64,000 nucleotides of DNA from Cyclobacteriaceae bacterium (GTDB lineage: Bacteria > Bacteroidota > Bacteroidia > Cytophagales > Cyclobacteriaceae). The notes below the pieces were generated by a model. It was not told the origin of the DNA. It did not search any database and was given only the letters and a program-made list of their open reading frames with translations. The stretch lies in the NCBI GenBank assembly GCA_016787725.1, contig JAEUTZ010000021.1, forward strand, positions 582,920 through 646,919, read 5' to 3'. Both the position numbers and the translations under genes were made by a program. Shown here piece by piece: positions 32,514 to 39,878 of the stretch. Each line of letters starts with the position of its first letter. Position 1 is the stretch's first letter.

Positions 32514-32530
32514 TCGTTTAATTTTTGGAC

Positions 32531-34294
32531 ATGAATTTCTTTAAAACCTTTCTTGCTTCCTGCCTGGGGGCGTTGGTCGCCTTCCTTGTTTTAAGTTTCT
32601 TGATGATTTTCTTTTTCACGGCCCTGATCTCGGGATTGTCGAGCGATGACTCGCTAACAGTTGTGAAGGAAAAATCCGTTTTGAACCTGAACTTGGATGT
32701 GCCCATTACAGAAAATGATATCGAAGATCCGTTGGAGGATCTTCCGATTCCGGGAACAGTTTCTACTATGGGATTACTGCCGTTGAAACGTGCCATCGAC
32801 CATGCGAAAACCGATCCGAAAATTGAAGGAATCTACCTGGAGGTAAGTACGTTCATGGGCGGTTATGGGGTGGCACGTGAAATCCGCGAAAGTCTGTTGG
32901 ATTTCAAGACGTCCGGTAAATGGATTATCGCTTATAGCGAGTTTTATACAGAACCATCCTATTATATCGCCTCTGTGGCTGATCAGGTATTGTTGCACCC
33001 GGAGGGCGAGCTTGAGTTCAACGGCCTGTCGGTTGAAGTATCCTTCTTTAAAAAGCTATTTGACAAACTGGAGATCAAACCTCAGATTTTCAGGGTAGGG
33101 GATTTCAAAAGTGCGGTGGAACCGTTTATGCTGGATCACCTGAGTGCCGAGAATAAGCTCCAACTAAACGAGCTGATTACCGATCTCCACACCACGATGG
33201 TACAAGATGTAGCCGTAACGCGTGGAATGGAAGTGGAGCAGATTCGAACAATCGCTAAACAAGGGATCATCACCAATCCGCTAACCGCGCGCGAAAATGG
33301 ACTCGTAGACTCACTCGTGTACTTCGATCAGGTATTAGCAGCGATGCGGAACCGGATTGGACTCGATGAAGATGACAAGGTTGCGTTAGTGAAGGTTGGG
33401 AAGTACAAGAAAAGTTTCTCGTCTTATTCCAGTTCCAAAAATGAAATTGCTGTGATTGTTGCCGATGGAGATATTCTTCCCGGAAAAGCCCAGACCGGCA
33501 TGATTGGCTCTGATACGTTTGCAGAAGAATTGAGGAAGGCCCGGACCAATGACCGGGTAAAGGCCATTGTGCTGCGCATCAATTCTCCGGGTGGCAGTGC
33601 CCTTGCTTCGGATGTGATGTGGCGCGAAATTCAGTTGGCCAGCGAAGTGAAACCAGTGATTGCCTCTATGAGCGATTATGCAGCTTCCGGAGGTTATTAT
33701 CTGGCAATGGCGTGCGATACTATTGTTGCTCAGCCTACCACCATTACAGGCTCGATCGGGGTGTTCAGTGTGTTGTTTGATTTGAGTAGTTTTCTAGATC
33801 ATAAGCTTGGCATTACTTTCGAAGAAGTAAAGACGGGAGATCTTGGTGAGATGGTGACTGTAACTCGCCCTTTGACGAGTGCCGAGAAAGCGATTTGGCA
33901 AAAACGTACCGATGAAATCTATGAGGCCTTCACTACCAAGGCAGCAGCAGGACGCGGCATGAGCGTTCAAGACCTTAAAAAGGTAGCCTCTGGTCGGGTG
34001 TGGACAGGCACCCAGGCGCAAGCCCATGGGCTGGTGGATGTCTTAGGAGATTTTGACGATGCTGTAGCGATCGCTGCGAATCGTGCGAATGTAACAGGAG
34101 ACTTTAAGCTCCGTTATTATCCGATTCAAAAGAGTTTCTTGCAGGAATGGCTATCGGGTATGGAGGAAAGTGCCGAATCGCAGGCACTACAAAACGAACT
34201 TGGCCAGCACTACGATATCTACCAGCAACTGAAGCGCCTAAAAGATTATCAAGGGAGTCAGACTCGATTGCCCTATACGTTAATAATCAACTAA
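32531..34294 (+). CDS. sppA: Signal peptide peptidase SppA (67K type)
   Basis: The 587-residue protein (ATG at 32531, chosen over TTG at 32525) has one N-terminal membrane helix (LVAFLVLSFLMIFFFTALISG) and two tandem ClpP-like S49 domains. The general base Lys193 lies in RVGDFKSAVEPF in the first domain and the nucleophile Ser386 in SDYAASGGYYLA in the second, the split catalytic dyad of the long SppA form. It degrades cleaved signal peptides in the membrane. It runs alone on the plus strand. Confidence 0.95.
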   Translation: MNFFKTFLASCLGALVAFLVLSFLMIFFFTALISGLSSDDSLTVVKEKSVLNLNLDVPITENDIEDPLEDLPIPGTVSTMGLLPLKRAIDHAKTDPKIEGIYLEVSTFMGGYGVAREIRESLLDFKTSGKWIIAYSEFYTEPSYYIASVADQVLLHPEGELEFNGLSVEVSFFKKLFDKLEIKPQIFRVGDFKSAVEPFMLDHLSAENKLQLNELITDLHTTMVQDVAVTRGMEVEQIRTIAKQGIITNPLTARENGLVDSLVYFDQVLAAMRNRIGLDEDDKVALVKVGKYKKSFSSYSSSKNEIAVIVADGDILPGKAQTGMIGSDTFAEELRKARTNDRVKAIVLRINSPGGSALASDVMWREIQLASEVKPVIASMSDYAASGGYYLAMACDTIVAQPTTITGSIGVFSVLFDLSSFLDHKLGITFEEVKTGDLGEMVTVTRPLTSAEKAIWQKRTDEIYEAFTTKAAAGRGMSVQDLKKVASGRVWTGTQAQAHGLVDVLGDFDDAVAIAANRANVTGDFKLRYYPIQKSFLQEWLSGMEESAESQALQNELGQHYDIYQQLKRLKDYQGSQTRLPYTLIIN

Positions 34295-34527: not shown

Positions 34528-34695
34528 TTACCTCTTGATTTCTTCAACTGCAAAGCCGCCAGCGGGTTCAATCGCTTTGGCATTCGAATGTTCAATAGTG
34601 GTTTTGTTACTACCCTGGCTCTCTAACGTTGAGAAGGCAAATGATAATAGAGAGAGCGAAAATATCCCGGTGATTATGGCAATTCTGGTTTTCAT
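34528..34695 (-). CDS. 55-residue secreted mini-protein sharing a C-terminal motif with its neighbours
   Basis: Read directly from the minus strand: ATG at 34695, TAA at 34530-34528. The start MKTRIAIITGIFSLSLLSFA is a clear signal peptide. The mature part ends AIEPAGGFAVEEIKR. This tail aligns with those of the two lipoproteins upstream: I-[KE]-P-A, then G-G-x-A-x3-I-K-R, 9 identical of 14 aligned positions with one 2-residue gap. It has no lipobox Cys. No known family is recognised. Gene order and shared tail suggest it belongs with the two lipoproteins and the divergent histidine kinase. Confidence 0.6.
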   Translation of the reverse strand: MKTRIAIITGIFSLSLLSFAFSTLESQGSNKTTIEHSNAKAIEPAGGFAVEEIKR

Positions 34696-34737
34696 ATCAA
34701 TTAATTTTTTAATGGTTTAAGAATCTAGATTATCAAA

Positions 34738-34863
34738 TTATCTTTTTATTGGATCGTTGGCAGCCCCACCGTCAGAAGCAGGCTTGATTTCTTCTTCCGT
34801 ACAGGCGGTAATGGATACAGAACTTACGAGGGCGAACAAAACAATGTAAAGCAGTTTTTTCAT
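34738..34863 (-). CDS. 41-residue lipoprotein, tandem copy 1
   Basis: ATG at 34863 (MKKLLYIVLFALVSSVSITAC); an in-frame extension upstream adds 19 unlikely residues. The lipobox ITAC places the lipidated Cys at residue 21, leaving a 21-residue lipopeptide. After Cys comes TEEE, an acidic stretch resembling lipoprotein surface-export signals of Bacteroidota. The tail is IKPASDGGAANDPIKR. Its sequence is nearly identical to the gene 26 bp upstream, so they arose by duplication. Function unknown. Confidence 0.72.
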   Translation of the reverse strand: MKKLLYIVLFALVSSVSITACTEEEIKPASDGGAANDPIKR

Positions 34864-34888
34864 GGGTTGAAAAGGTTTAGATTTTGGG

Positions 34889-35014
34889 TTATCGTTTAAT
34901 GGGATCGTTGGCAGCCCCACCGTCAGAAGCAGGCTTGACTTCTTCTTCCGTACAGGCTGTAATTGTTGTCGAACTTACAAGAGCAAACACAAGGATGTAG
35001 AGCAGTTTTTTCAT
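34889..35014 (-). CDS. 41-residue lipoprotein, tandem copy 2
   Basis: ATG at 35014, TAA at 34891-34889. The signal peptide (MKKLLYILVFALVSSTTITAC) ends in an ITAC lipobox with Cys21, followed by TEEEVKPASDGGAANDPIKR. The mature 21 residues differ from the neighbouring copy only by I/V, while the signal peptide has drifted more, suggesting selection on the mature lipopeptide. It is the promoter-proximal gene of the three and is divergent from the histidine kinase start 105 bp away. Confidence 0.72.
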   Translation of the reverse strand: MKKLLYILVFALVSSTTITACTEEEVKPASDGGAANDPIKR

Positions 35015-35113
35015 TAGTTTTTAGGTTAGGTTTTCTGGTTTCTTTCCTCTAAAATTGACCTTCCAAAAGTCTGAAGTTGGTTGGAAATAATTTTAGGAAT
35101 AAAGACAACCTAA

Positions 35114-35125
35114 GTACACGTGTAC
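35114..35125. promoter_or_regulatory. 12-bp palindrome over the kinase start
   Basis: GTACACGTGTAC is a perfect palindrome overlapping the GTG start (35120) of the sensor kinase, inside the divergent intergenic region shared with the mini-protein genes. It may be an operator; a chance palindrome cannot be excluded. Confidence 0.3.
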
Positions 35126-37411
35126 CATTACCGAATTAAAATTTTGATTTGGAGCTTCAGTCTCATCATGCTGTTATTTGTCGGAACAGCCACAATAGCT
35201 CAGATAAAAACCATCGACTCTCTCGTACAACTCTCAAAATCGCAGTCTGGAGCCCCCCAGCTTGAAACCTTCTATGAATTGACTTTTCAATACCTGGGGA
35301 ACAGCCAATATGAGGAGTCATTAACGTCCATTACAAAGGCACAAAAACTTGCTGCTGATTTGGGAGATACCCTGAAGATAATTAAGACTTCCCGAATCAA
35401 AGGTCAGATTTTAAGAAGGCTGGATCGAACCAATGAGGCGATCGTAGCTTTTTTAAATGTATTACCACTTGCTAAGAAGAGCAATACGAAGGGCACTGAT
35501 TTTCTTTCCGAGTATGTTGATATTCTTAATGCATTGGCAGTTGCACATACATTCCAGGCTAACTATGATAAAGCGTTGGAATATAATTTTGAATCGTTGG
35601 TGGTGCGTGAGCGGGAAGGCGATAACTACGAGATCAGTGTTGCGTTGAATAATATTGGATTGGTCTATTTTAAATTAAAAGATTATGATCGAGCGCTTGA
35701 ATACTATATCAGGGCATTGAATCTGATCAACCTATCAGGCAAATACACATTTAAAGACAGACTTTTGATCAATATTGGGTTGTGCTTTAATCAAGTGCAG
35801 AACCAATCTGATAATTTCATCAAGGCTCAAAAGTATATCAATGATGGCTTGGAGTTTTGTCAACCGAATTGTGAAGACCTAACGGTAATGGAAGGAAAAT
35901 TTGGCTTAGGCATTTCCAATTTTAAATTGAAACAGTATGATCAGGCGATTATTCAATTTTCCGAGTCTTTCAACATCGCCCAAGCGTTGAACGATAAACG
36001 ATTCCAATTGGAAAATTTGCTCTACCTCGCTGAAATCAAAATAATTTTAAATGACAATCAAGGGGCAATTCAAGATTTGAGAAGATCAGAAGAAATTGCA
36101 GCGGATACAAAGTATAATGAACTACTCATAAAAATATATAGAGAATATTCAAGGCTATACAATCAGATTGGGGATTATCGAAATGCGGCTTTGTATCAAG
36201 ATAAATATATTGCACTAAAAGACAGTACTTATAGTGAGCAATTGATCAAAAATTTGGCTGAAATTCAAACCAAATTTGAGGAGCGCGAAAACCTGCAGAC
36301 CATCGAAGAGAAAAATGAGAATATTCGTTTGCAGAATGAACTCATTTCGCGTCAGCGAATACAATATTTCTTTATCATATTGGTAACCGCGTTAACAATC
36401 GTACTTGCTTCAGTTTTAGTATGGGCTAACAGAAGACAACAGAAGCACAATTTAGCATTGAGCGAGGCAAAGAAGGTGATCGAAGTTCAAAACAAGGAGT
36501 TAACCAAGACCAACGAAGAACTGGACCTGCGCGTGCAAGAAAAGACCCGCGATTTGCTGAGTACCAATGAAACGTTGATACAGGTAAACGAAGAACTGGA
36601 TAATTTTATTTACCGAACTTCGCACGACATTCGCGGCCCTTTGGTAACGTTGAAGGGCGTATGCAATGTGGCCAGCCTGGATGTAAAGGATCCGGTGGCA
36701 TTGGATTACCTGAAGCGGCTCGACCTGACTGCTGAAAAACTAAATTCCATTCTTACCCGGTTGTTAGTGGTTAATCAAATCAATCATACGGAACTGGAAG
36801 CCACCCCCATCGATCTAAAAGCGATGATAGATGACATCCTGGTGTCGGATCGCAGAACGCCCATTCCACCGCGCATGAAAATCAATCATCAGGTTGATCA
36901 ATCGGTCTCCCTGATATCAGATCGATATTTAATGTGTATCATTCTCGAAAATCTGATTGATAATTCCGTTAAGTTTTACAATACTTCTGATCGCATTGAG
37001 CCTTATGTCAACATTGACATAACAACAGCCTCGCCAGGTCTGATCCTGGTGAAAGTAGTGGACAATGGAATTGGGATTGATCCGGCTGAGAAGAATGGAA
37101 TTTTTCACCTGTTTGTACGGGCTTCGGAACGGTCAGAGACGGGCGGTATTGGCCTTTATCTCACCCGCGTGGCAGCACAACGGTTAGGCGGAGAGATTAA
37201 ATTGGTAGCAACTTCTGATAAAGGATCCACTTTCCATGTCTTCCTACCGGCCGATTTGCGACCCATCTTGGAAAAACGGAAGCAAGCGGAGGAACAGATG
37301 AAACGTGAGCGGGCAAAGCGCGATCGTGAACTTCAGTCCCAGCGCGAACAGGATGCAATGATGAACCAATACCTGCCCCACAATAAGCAAAAGGATGCCT
37401 TAGCATCCTGA
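35120..37411 (+). CDS. TPR-domain sensor histidine kinase
   Basis: The 763-residue protein has a signal-anchor at 1-28 (GTG start; next in-frame ATG at residue 17), about seven tetratricopeptide repeats at 35-385 predicted to be periplasmic, a membrane helix at about 415-436, a coiled coil (440-490), then a HisKA domain with His502 in [11 protein letters not shown] and an HATPase domain with [20 protein letters not shown] and [17 protein letters not shown]. No receiver domain is fused and no response regulator is adjacent. The phosphate acceptor is therefore unknown. It is divergent from three mini-protein genes. Confidence 0.92.
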
Positions 37412-37460: not shown

Positions 37461-39566
37461 ATGACAAAGTCCTTCAAGCGCTATACCGTTACGGCTGCCC
37501 TGCCTTATGCCAATGGCCCCAAACACATCGGTCACCTGGCCGGAGCATACATTCCTTCCGATGTGTATGTGCGTTACCTGAGGTTGACGGGGCAGGATGT
37601 TATTTTTGTGTGCGGAAGCGATGAACACGGCACAGCCATCCCGAATCAGGCGCTCAAAGAAAATACCACGCCTCGGGCCATCATCGATAAATATGATGAC
37701 CTGATCCGCACTTGTTTTGAGCATCTCGGCATGTCGTTCGACATCTATCATCGCACCAGCGAACCCATTCATCATCAAACCTCGCAGGAGATATTTTTAT
37801 CGCTCTACAACAAGGGGTTGCTCACGGAAGAGTCATCCGAGCAATACTTTGATCCGGAAGCCAATGTTTTTTTGGCCGATCGTTACATTGTTGGCACGTG
37901 TCCCAAATGCGGTCACACCAATGCCTATGGCGATCAGTGTGAGAAGTGCGGCTCTACCCTAAGCCCACGCGAGTTGATAAACCCACGTTCAACACTCAGT
38001 GGAAAAAGTCCGGTGCTGAAACTGACCAAACATTGGTACTTACCCTTGGAGAATTATGAGCCTTGGTTGCGCGAATGGATTTTAAAGTCGCACCAGGAAG
38101 ATTGGAAACCCAATGTATATGGCCAATGTAAATCTTGGATCGAAGCGGGTTTACAACCCAGAGCCATGACCCGCGACCTGGACTGGGGCATAAAAGTTCC
38201 CTTGAAAGAAGCCGAAGGCAAGGTGCTGTATGTTTGGTTCGATGCCCCGATTGGGTATATCTCCGCAACACGGGCATTGTTCGAAGAAGTGCATTCGGGT
38301 CAGTTGAAATTTGCCACACCCAGACGGGATTTAGGGAAAGCTTCAAAGGACGATTGGAAAAAATACTGGCAAGGAAGTGATACCCGCCTGATTCACTTTA
38401 TAGGCAAAGACAACATCGTCTTTCACTGCATCATCTTTCCGGTCATGTTGCACGCCACCGGGGAATACATCGTACCCGATAATGTACCCGCCAACGAGTT
38501 CATGAATCTGGAAGGCGACAAGATGTCCACCAGCCGTGGGTGGTCGATCGAAATGCATGAGTACCTGGCCGATTTTCCGGACAAACCCGATGTATTGCGG
38601 TATGCCTTGCTCACCAACTTGCCGGAAGCGAAGGACAGTGAATTTACATGGAAAGATTTTCAAGCCAAGAATAACAATGAATTGGTAGCTATTCTGGGCA
38701 ATTTTATAAACCGGGCAGTGGTGCTGACGCAAAAATATTTTGAGAACAAGGTTCCCCTGCAAAAGAATTTACAGGCAGTGGATAAGAAGGCGTTGGAAGA
38801 GCTAAGTCAGTATCCTGCTAAGATTGCTGCTTCTATTGAAACCTTCCGCTTTCGGGAAGCTACCGCCAACCTCATGGATCTGGCACGGGTTGGAAATAAA
38901 TACCTGGCGGAGACAGAACCCTGGAAGTTGGCGAAAACCGACCTGAACCGGGTAGGCACCATCCTGAATATCGCTTTACAAATTGCGGCTTCGCTGTCGG
39001 TGGTGTGCGAACCCTTTCTTCCCTTTACTGCTCGAAAGTTGAAAGACATGTTGGGCGTGGGAGAATTACCGTGGGAACAGGCCGGACAACCCGATTTGTT
39101 GAGAGCCGGTAGTGCCTTGTACGATGCCCCGCTGTTATTTGAAAAGATCGAAGACGCAGTTATCGAAGCTCAGATTAAAAAGTTACTGGATACCAAACGC
39201 ACGATGGAACTCGCATCACAACCGGCTGCCCCGGCTAAGACAGAGATTTCGTTTGACGATTTTTCGAAGCTGGATGTCCGCATCGGCACGATTTTGAAAG
39301 CGGAACGAGTGGACAAATCGAAGAAGCTTCTGAAACTTCAGGTGGATACAGGTCTTGATGTTCGAACCGTCATGAGCGGGATTGCCGAGCACTTTAGTCC
39401 CGACCAGGTAGAGGGTAAACAGGTTACGATTTTGGTGAATCTGGCCCCCCGCAAAATCATGGGCGTGGAGTCGCAAGGAATGATCTTGATGGCTACCGAT
39501 AAGGATGGATCCTTGAAGTTGATTTCACCAGGAGAACAGGTTTCACCCGGTTCTGTAATCAGCTAG
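37461..39566 (+). CDS. metG: Methionyl-tRNA synthetase
   Basis: The 701-residue class I synthetase has HIGH at 22-25, a zinc knuckle with four Cys ([18 protein letters not shown]), KMSTS at 354-358, the helical anticodon domain, and a C-terminal Trbp111-like tRNA-binding domain (about 590-701, [19 protein letters not shown]). It charges both initiator and elongator tRNA-Met. ATG at 37461 gives [19 protein letters not shown]. It lies 49 bp after the histidine kinase and converges on a small secreted protein gene. Confidence 0.97.
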
Positions 39567-39572
39567 ATCAAA

Positions 39573-39878
39573 TCAATAGTGAGAAGCAATTTTCTCCCAC
39601 CTGCGTTTCTGACGCGGGTAAAACGTGTTCCATATTTGATTGTTGCGGGCTTGCAAATATTCGGGTAACAAAGTCCGGTCAGGAACTGATTTCAATTGGG
39701 TATAGAATTCTGAATTGATATCCCGGATTCTCCGCATCTGTTCTTGCGACAATTTAAGGCTAGGTGCCCAAAACACAGGATCGTAGGGGAAAATGCTTGT
39801 ATCAGCTTGAGCGTTAGCGGATTGAGAGGCCAGAACCAGCAGGCACAGAGCAGCAAGAACCAAAAAAGATCGTTTCAT
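39573..39878 (-). CDS. Small secreted Spy/CpxP-like protein
   Basis: The 101-residue precursor has a signal peptide (MKRSFLVLAALCLLVLASQSANAQ) and a mature helical part with LKLSQEQMRRIRDINSEFYTQL and NTFYPRQKRRWEKI. The L-(S/T)-x-x-Q spacing and basic helices resemble LTxxQ-motif periplasmic proteins of the Spy/CpxP group, but the protein is short and similarity is by eye. It is convergent with metG (6 bp apart). Confidence 0.65.
   Translation of the reverse strand: MKRSFLVLAALCLLVLASQSANAQADTSIFPYDPVFWAPSLKLSQEQMRRIRDINSEFYTQLKSVPDRTLLPEYLQARNNQIWNTFYPRQKRRWEKIASHY

Follow-up and report, generated by a model that had tools for sequence, protein, structure and literature searches.

A 64,000-nt stretch of a Cyclobacteriaceae genome (G000:C27:582920-646919; hereafter "the window") holds a compact cassette in which short genes for two 41-aa lipoproteins (family A, here A1 and A2) and one 55-aa secreted protein (family B) are divergent from a gene for a histidine kinase with a tetratricopeptide repeat (TPR) sensor domain. 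These four open reading frames (ORFs) had been called in the original prediction and were confirmed at their positions. We think it likely that the cassette is a secreted-peptide ligand/receptor pair, the C-terminal tails of the small proteins being putative ligands of the kinase. Export signals, gene pairing, selection on the tail and co-variation of tail and sensor can be shown from the sequences; for signalling between cells we see slightly less than an even chance.

Tails vary with the sensor domain

Co-variation was analysed for kinases of at least 650 aa, which left 60 of the 62 scored cassettes. Seven of the 62 are from other genera, and five loci (L035, L048, L091, L093 and L097) were omitted from scoring because the kinase was cut off or A was unscored. 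The distance between tails correlated with the distance between the periplasmic domains of the 60 kinases with a Spearman coefficient of 0.47, and with the distance between their catalytic halves with one of 0.26. In partial Mantel tests, the tail-periplasmic correlation given the catalytic half was 0.41 (reached in 0 of 2000 permutations), while the tail-catalytic correlation given the periplasmic domain was 0.07. Neighbouring genes served as a control, with one cassette per locus (n = 35 for FolK, 40 for SppA and 54 for MetG). The partial tail-sensor correlation was 0.58 given FolK, 0.42 given SppA and 0.40 given MetG (0/1000 in each case), and tail versus FolK given the sensor was 0.09. The signal peptide of the same A gene followed the sensor with a value of 0.24, below the tail's 0.41.

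These figures bear on the possibility that A and B are outputs, i.e. that the kinase controls small envelope lipoproteins which act elsewhere, and that co-variation comes from linkage and shared history. Regulators are often encoded divergently from their targets, and the layout of the cassette, its syntenic position between sppA and metG and an A-B co-variation that is modest after phylogenetic pairing (see below) would all suit this explanation. We nevertheless regard it as quite unlikely, as the tail follows the sensor far above the catalytic half or the neighbour genes, the linked signal peptide does so less, and the tail is preserved across tandem copies.

Co-duplicated cassettes point to the ligand/receptor pair as well. 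Two kinases, each paired with an A of its own, occur at five loci, and the tails differ in all five pairs. The two kinases of L024 are 82% identical in the catalytic half and 37% in the sensor, those of L085 76% and 32%, with differing tails in both pairs, and the class of the sensor matches the class of the tail across the two genomes. Sensors and tails that differ on a shared catalytic half are the pattern of Gram-positive pherotypes. Species-specific tails together with paralogous cassettes of differing sensor and tail fit a pheromone-type (pherotype) specificity.

The cassette design is conserved in the kinase lineage

Comparison of the loci indicates that it is the design [B<-A(1-5)<-][->kinase] which is conserved, rather than the letters of the tail. 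An A-profile search at E <= 0.1 matched 62 of the 63 genomes of the genus, some of these being signal-peptide matches in long ORFs. When the loci were read, a real A was found in 55 of the 63 (intact in 53, truncated by a contig end in G070 and in fused frames in G024). A kinase or the start of one adjoins A in 54 of these 55, and in the remaining genome, G030, the contig stops at A. B is present in 54 of the 62 scored cassettes, and the start-to-start distance between A and kinase ranges from 7 to 363 bp, with 52 of the 62 between 70 and 170 bp. The fused frame in G024 (L048:5361-6230(-)) contains four A copies with 180-bp spacing within a 294-codon open frame and does not read as separate genes; a sequencing error and a real fusion are both possible.

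The original prediction had proposed a single tail motif, shared by the three small proteins and to be sought beside TPR kinases in relatives. Short genes beside a TPR kinase are indeed kept there, but the exact letters are not: the A proteins of relatives end in PIKE, DKGF, DPKG, ERI and others, and B often ends in GGF-x-x-[ED], so one common motif had to be given up as a conserved feature.

For an independent test, 147 genomes of the family were searched with the sensor domain alone. At E <= 1e-55, 45 of them matched, and loci not seen before were read. Among the scorable metG-linked kinases outside the genus, 18 of 19 have a divergent A-type lipoprotein gene (L202-L211, L214-L216, L218 and L220-L223, the A of L220 being cut by the contig end). 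Three further metG-linked loci were unscorable, one cut by the contig end (L224) and two with incomplete kinases (L212 and L213, the latter with A and B). Outside the metG context, 13 kinases of the same family were found, three with A (L217, L219, L225) and ten without. The SHD[IL]RGP box is present in 22/22 metG-linked or A-bearing kinases that were checked; a simple HATPase motif was unmatched in L220 and L223.

As a control, distant TPR-sensor loci were inspected for a short secreted ORF up to 700 bp upstream, and none was found in 26. Under a slightly stricter filter, one distant locus (L156) shows a short ORF resembling a lipoprotein gene, located at the edge of the locus some 1.3 kb upstream. 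From the independent test and this control we conclude that the small genes go with this kinase lineage rather than with TPR sensors generally; a general tie between TPR sensors and mini-lipoproteins was rejected on the 26 distant loci and the ten A-less relatives outside the metG context. Across the order, the A profile matched at least 221 of 342 genomes. Among the matches listed, most were signal-peptide matches inside longer ORFs, and strong, short, full-length A outside the genus occurred in seven genomes, all of the same family. Two weaker short matches in other families (L164, L165) were read and have no such kinase beside them.

The tail is under protein-level selection

To compare tandem A copies, 66 pairs were used, pairs within one locus not being independent. 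In the part following the lipidated cysteine (the tail), the proportion of synonymous differences (pS) was 0.414 and that of non-synonymous differences (pN) 0.024 (pN/pS 0.06); in the signal peptide, pS was 0.430 and pN 0.143 (pN/pS 0.33). Because pN is far below pS, the likeness of tails among tandem copies reflects selection on the protein, not recent duplication, and the A genes are coding. For B, conservation suggests the same. The A1/A2 pair of the window has 8 synonymous and 5 non-synonymous differences in the signal peptide, and 3 and 1 in the tail. The last eight residues are identical in 19 of 21 multi-copy cassettes, and there are 55 distinct last-eight tails among the 62 cassettes.

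That the small ORFs are not genes, or that the likeness of their tails is coincidental, is barely conceivable in view of same-frame conservation in dozens of genomes and of an A pN so far under pS. What could be said for it is that the ORFs are short and that the literal tail motif, taken as a DNA pattern, is not enriched in the window (4 matches versus 3.93 expected). As the motif does not exceed chance, the case rests on comparative evidence.

In one genome of another genus (G672, L223:3969-4145(+)) the A tail contains the 11-residue unit DVVRRGEDIRG twice in line, a likeness to some pheromone precursors. A sister genome (G728, L220:3-149(-)) has a related A sequence, cut by the contig, and G672 has more copies situated at the ends of contigs.

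Export signals and a possible alternative role in the envelope

In all 99 scored A copies (of 101), residue +2 after the cysteine is T, S or A, and 96 of the 99 have at least two acidic residues at +3 to +6; C-x-K-[DE]-[DE] occurs in 18. The lipoprotein export signal (LES) for the surface of Bacteroidota is given, in excerpts of PMC5080379, as C-x-K-(D/E)2 or as a polar residue followed by a D/E run. The A copies agree with the LES in sequence, which makes their surface location a prediction.

The same residues would also suit a cell-autonomous envelope sentinel, in which A is a minimal cargo of lipoprotein export and failed export keeps the tail near the TPR kinase, setting off a stress response in the manner of NlpE and CpxA in E. 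coli; in a variant, the retained A tail competes with soluble B at the kinase, so that the sentinel, too, uses tail binding. Such a sentinel accounts well for a minimal lipoprotein with these residues after the cysteine, for a soluble partner with a similar tail and for a cassette found in most genomes of the genus, as expected of a housekeeping monitor. We consider it unlikely, since the many distinct tails co-vary with the sensor and a self-monitor gains nothing obvious by changing its key, and since neither an in-line tail repeat nor kinase-dead receptors (see below) would be expected of it. Species-specific tails favour signalling between cells; a self-monitor is still conceivable given the export signal and a cassette that most genomes of the genus possess.

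A and B tails resemble each other beyond chance

The original prediction treated the three small genes as one tail-sharing set. A and B are in fact two different families, and what is left of the set is a partial likeness between them that exceeds chance over many cassettes. Within the 54 cassettes with both genes, the excess of A-B likeness in the last five residues was 3.24 (null sd 0.61, 0/5000 permutations); in 37 non-redundant cassettes it was 4.42 (sd 0.74, 0/5000). For a hold-out we used 15 cassettes of other genera with both genes (L211 and L217 have no B), taking the A nearest to the kinase. Local alignment then gave 7-107 of 20000. With hand-picked A copies, which were not always the nearest, the values were 6-65 for local alignment, 763-2495 for the ungapped comparison and 144 without three loci, again of 20000. 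In disjoint nearest pairs, a test that leaves out pairs with identical tails, the last eight residues gave 18 versus 5 (sign p 0.005; Wilcoxon 0.0046). From the A-B tests, the shared tail of the window is one local case of a tendency that is real but moderate. The agreement between A1 and A2 is due to their being paralogues.

Evidence against a ligand/receptor pair

Several results weigh against our interpretation. The tail shows a weak association with the catalytic half, seen in the raw correlation above and in values of 0.23 given FolK, 0.01 given SppA and 0.15 given MetG, and joint recombination of linked segments could produce the co-variation of tail and sensor; the signal peptide co-varies less, however. 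In one locus (L081:1650-5887(-)) two tandem kinases of 699 and 693 aa have a single A and a single B between them, which diverge only from the distal kinase, and one metG-linked kinase outside the genus (L229) has no A. Eight of the 63 genus genomes are without A. We counted them here as well, and judged these absences uninformative because of gaps and missing SppA in the A-less genomes: G066 has an assembly gap (the C-terminus of a kinase lies at the contig edge), G076, G012 and G022 yielded no SppA either, and G021 has only a short paralogue. For these reasons the co-absence of A and kinase was dropped as evidence. The other three (G004, G010, G084) have no sensor match at E <= 1e-60.

The likeness of A and B is also less firm in some tests. 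In the hold-out with the nearest A, the ungapped comparison gave 556-624 of 20000; when three loci were left out, local alignment gave 157. In the disjoint nearest pairs, the last five residues gave 15 versus 7 (sign p 0.067; Wilcoxon 0.017). Pairs chosen by the catalytic half were not significant (12 versus 13 for the last five, 15 versus 10 for the last eight). Finally, the conserved cassette is without a response regulator, exporter or dedicated protease, and an A on the surface would not share a compartment with its kinase unless it were released or taken up. On the other side, the conserved cassette, co-duplication at five loci, the constancy of tails within a genome, their difference between species and the tail-sensor co-variation give the core of the original prediction, a putative sensing of the tails by the kinase, far better support than one sequence could offer; the prediction as a whole is supported in part.

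Architecture of the locus

The coordinates of the cassette and its flanks are given in Table 1. A2 differs from A1 by one change in the mature part (I for V) and by several residues in the signal peptide. The C-termini of A1 and A2 after Cys21 read EE[VI]KPASDGGAANDPIKR, and that of B reads AIEPAGGFAVEEIKR. The predicted tail motif is thus present locally in a wider form, [IV]-[KE]-P-A, since A1 has Val and not Ile before KPA. The signal of B was judged to be of the Sec type by eye and with a crude filter. Searches of A and B against Pfam and NCBIfam found no family above the cut-off. In the intergenic regions, the Bacteroidota promoter consensus TTG-N-TAnnTTTG was not enriched (1/56 in each direction, shuffles 1.8).

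Table 1. Coordinates of the cassette, its parts and its flanking genes in the window
Feature	Position	Strand	Remarks
sppA	32525-34294	+	SppA by Pfam (Peptidase_S49); one flank of the cassette
B	34528..34695	-	55 aa, no lipobox, C-terminal EPAGGFAVEEIKR; last gene of the A-B run
A2, second A copy	34738..34863	-	41 aa, lipobox ending at Cys21
A1	34889..35014	-	41 aa; signal peptide residues 1-20, predicted lipidated Cys21 (lipobox)
A1 mature part	34892-34954	-	predicted 21-aa lipopeptide
Divergent intergenic region A1/kinase	35015..35119	.	105 bp
TPR sensor histidine kinase	35120..37411	+	GTG start, 763 aa
Periplasmic TPR sensor domain	35201..36343	+	predicted, residues 28-408
Second hydrophobic stretch	36353..36433	+	predicted transmembrane from hydropathy
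Predicted phospho-accepting His502	36623..36625	+	in SHDIRGP
metG	37461-39566	+	MetG named by eye; other flank of the cassette

Pfam matches of the kinase are TPR_12 (E 1.1e-21, four stretches) and HATPase_c (E 1.8e-16), with a HisKA match of 20.7 bits, under the Pfam cut-off of 26.9; no helix-turn-helix (HTH) family is among them. Hydropathy shows two hydrophobic stretches, at about residues 4-32 and 412-438. As the TPR region is placed between them, it is presumably extracytoplasmic, which agrees with the location given in the original prediction. Two cysteines of the sensor (Cys247 and Cys251) are conserved in 59 of 60 kinases, and this pair matches the expectation for an extracytoplasmic location. 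His502, N615, D648, G650, G652, G676 and G678 are present in 60/60. The best named match is the FimS equivalog NF053520, with 106.4 bits far from its cut-off of 600. A single-sequence AlphaFold model of the sensor had a mean predicted local distance difference test (pLDDT) score of 37.6 and was not used.

The conserved gene order is FabD-FolK-SppA-cassette-MetG. It contains no response regulator, the neighbouring ORFs being only partly annotated. The original prediction had also seen no peptide-processing gene next to the cassette. An SppA-type peptidase does adjoin it, and synteny suggests that this may be a matter of position only. It flanks the cassette in many relatives; peptide processing and mere synteny are both possible. 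Past metG, the window encodes a secreted 101-aa protein (39573-39878(-)), and similar proteins are found at the same place in L040-L043 and L048. A protein of the window matches a type IX secretion system (T9SS) type B sorting domain just under the cut-off (32 versus 35 bits), in keeping with an origin in Bacteroidota.

Kinase-dead paralogues and related operons

Ten TPR paralogues of 514-569 aa lie beside cassettes of the genus. They have both cysteines, a stretch like the dimerization and histidine phosphotransfer (DHp) domain and, by eye, an N-terminal hydrophobic segment. The acceptor His is absent in all ten (in L025 and L036, the preceding residue is a His), and their length leaves no room for a catalytic domain; of these paralogues, six were searched with Pfam and gave no HATPase match. 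Other genera have 13 such paralogues of 502-565 aa (five in L201, two each in L203 and L204, four in L205), in none of which the SHD box or the simple HATPase motif is present. Receptors of this kind, up to five per locus, are thus known from L201, L203, L204 and L205 and from L024, L025, L036, L044, L046, L051, L085, L086 and L097, either close to the cassette or distant from it. They could be decoys or dimer partners.

Together with the diversification of the tails, these kinase-less paralogues could be read as immunity-like, with A and B as secreted effectors against competitors and a kinase that senses self to regulate them. We hold such antagonism to be very improbable, as the loci that were read showed neither an immunity gene nor an exporter or a killing domain (PADLOC was not searched).

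Three other TPR-kinase genes of the genus show related arrangements. In L106:5134-7864(+), an A-like 48-aa lipoprotein is followed by a TPR-HisKA_3 kinase, with a response regulator of the LuxR type next to it. In L108:2719-5532(-) and L109:389-3227(+), an A-like lipoprotein precedes a TPR-HisKA_2 kinase and a LytTR response regulator, and L163:2845-5666(-) has the same arrangement as L108, by gene order only. The mini-lipoproteins of L108, L109 and L163 are of a second type, with tails like DDPIIIPP.PPK. The operons of L106, L108 and L109 support a tie between mini-lipoproteins and TPR kinases that extends past one locus. L108 and L163 have a neighbour that resembles a TIR protein by eye, and L162 has a copy of the second-type mini-lipoprotein without the Cys, with no TPR kinase recognised beside it.

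Proposed mechanism and comparison with known systems

In the mechanism that we propose, signal peptidase II would process A, which would carry a lipid and be transported to the outer membrane. A surface location is probable because the acidic residues after the Cys resemble the export signal of Bacteroidota. The TPR domain would bind A by its C-terminal tail, and B by its similar one, and this binding would set the activity of the kinase via the membrane span and the DHp helices; the phosphoryl group would pass to a response regulator whose gene lies elsewhere. Multiple identical A copies would raise the dose. Beyond this, and with a little more doubt than belief, we envisage an undescribed form of peptide communication in Bacteroidota, in which C-terminal tags of lipid-anchored and soluble mini-proteins may be read by periplasmic TPR kinases, with pherotype-like diversification, multi-copy or in-line repeated tags and arrays of kinase-dead decoys.

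Several known systems are comparable. In excerpts of PMC9765709, the RRNPP(A) systems of Firmicutes (Rap-Phr, PlcR-PapR, NprR, AimR) are described as a TPR receptor encoded next to a short propeptide that is exported and carries the signal in its C-terminal part; several identical copies or repeated peptides are found in some of these systems ("chatterers"). A TPR receptor and an adjacent short exported propeptide with a variable C-terminal tail are found here as well. However, the RRNPP(A) receptor is cytoplasmic and its peptide re-imported, whereas the TPR region of the cassette is predicted to lie outside the inner membrane as part of a histidine kinase, so that no re-import would be needed. 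The receptor there is an HTH regulator or of the Rap type, here it is a HisKA/HATPase_c kinase, and the main propeptide here is a lipoprotein in a Gram-negative host. As two defining features (a cytoplasmic receptor; an HTH or Rap architecture) are absent, we do not class the cassette as RRNPP(A).

Secreted peptides encoded beside a membrane kinase are known from the agr, ComD and ComP systems of Gram-positives, where sensor and peptide diverge together and the catalytic half is conserved. These differ from the cassette by a sensor with multiple transmembrane segments, by processed or modified peptides and by dedicated maturation genes; the cassette showed no such maturation gene. In E. coli, the lipoprotein NlpE is sensed by the inner-membrane kinase CpxA in envelope surveillance, but NlpE is large and single-copy, and CpxA has no TPR domain. 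FimS of Porphyromonas gingivalis is similar in that it has a periplasmic TPR domain on a histidine kinase; it differs in having a known regulator (FimR), and the cassette kinase scores far under the cut-off of its family. The signal of FimS is unknown, and a polypeptide ligand was considered possible by the authors, according to excerpts of PMC11053733.

A literature search, with subscription papers and preprints largely outside its coverage, found no description of this design. Sensor domains of this TPR type are present in 124 of 247 genomes of the phylum at E <= 1e-25, not necessarily all of them in kinases. Since the cassette offers a candidate ligand that is linked to the kinase gene and has a tail varying with the sensor, the question of what such sensors perceive becomes testable. 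If the form of communication envisaged above is real, the A and B proteins would be the first candidates, by gene linkage, for the ligands of periplasmic TPR sensor kinases. A layer of decoys may be added by the kinase-dead receptor paralogues, and if the signal passes between cells, the cassette would constitute a peptide-pheromone system in Gram-negative Bacteroidota.

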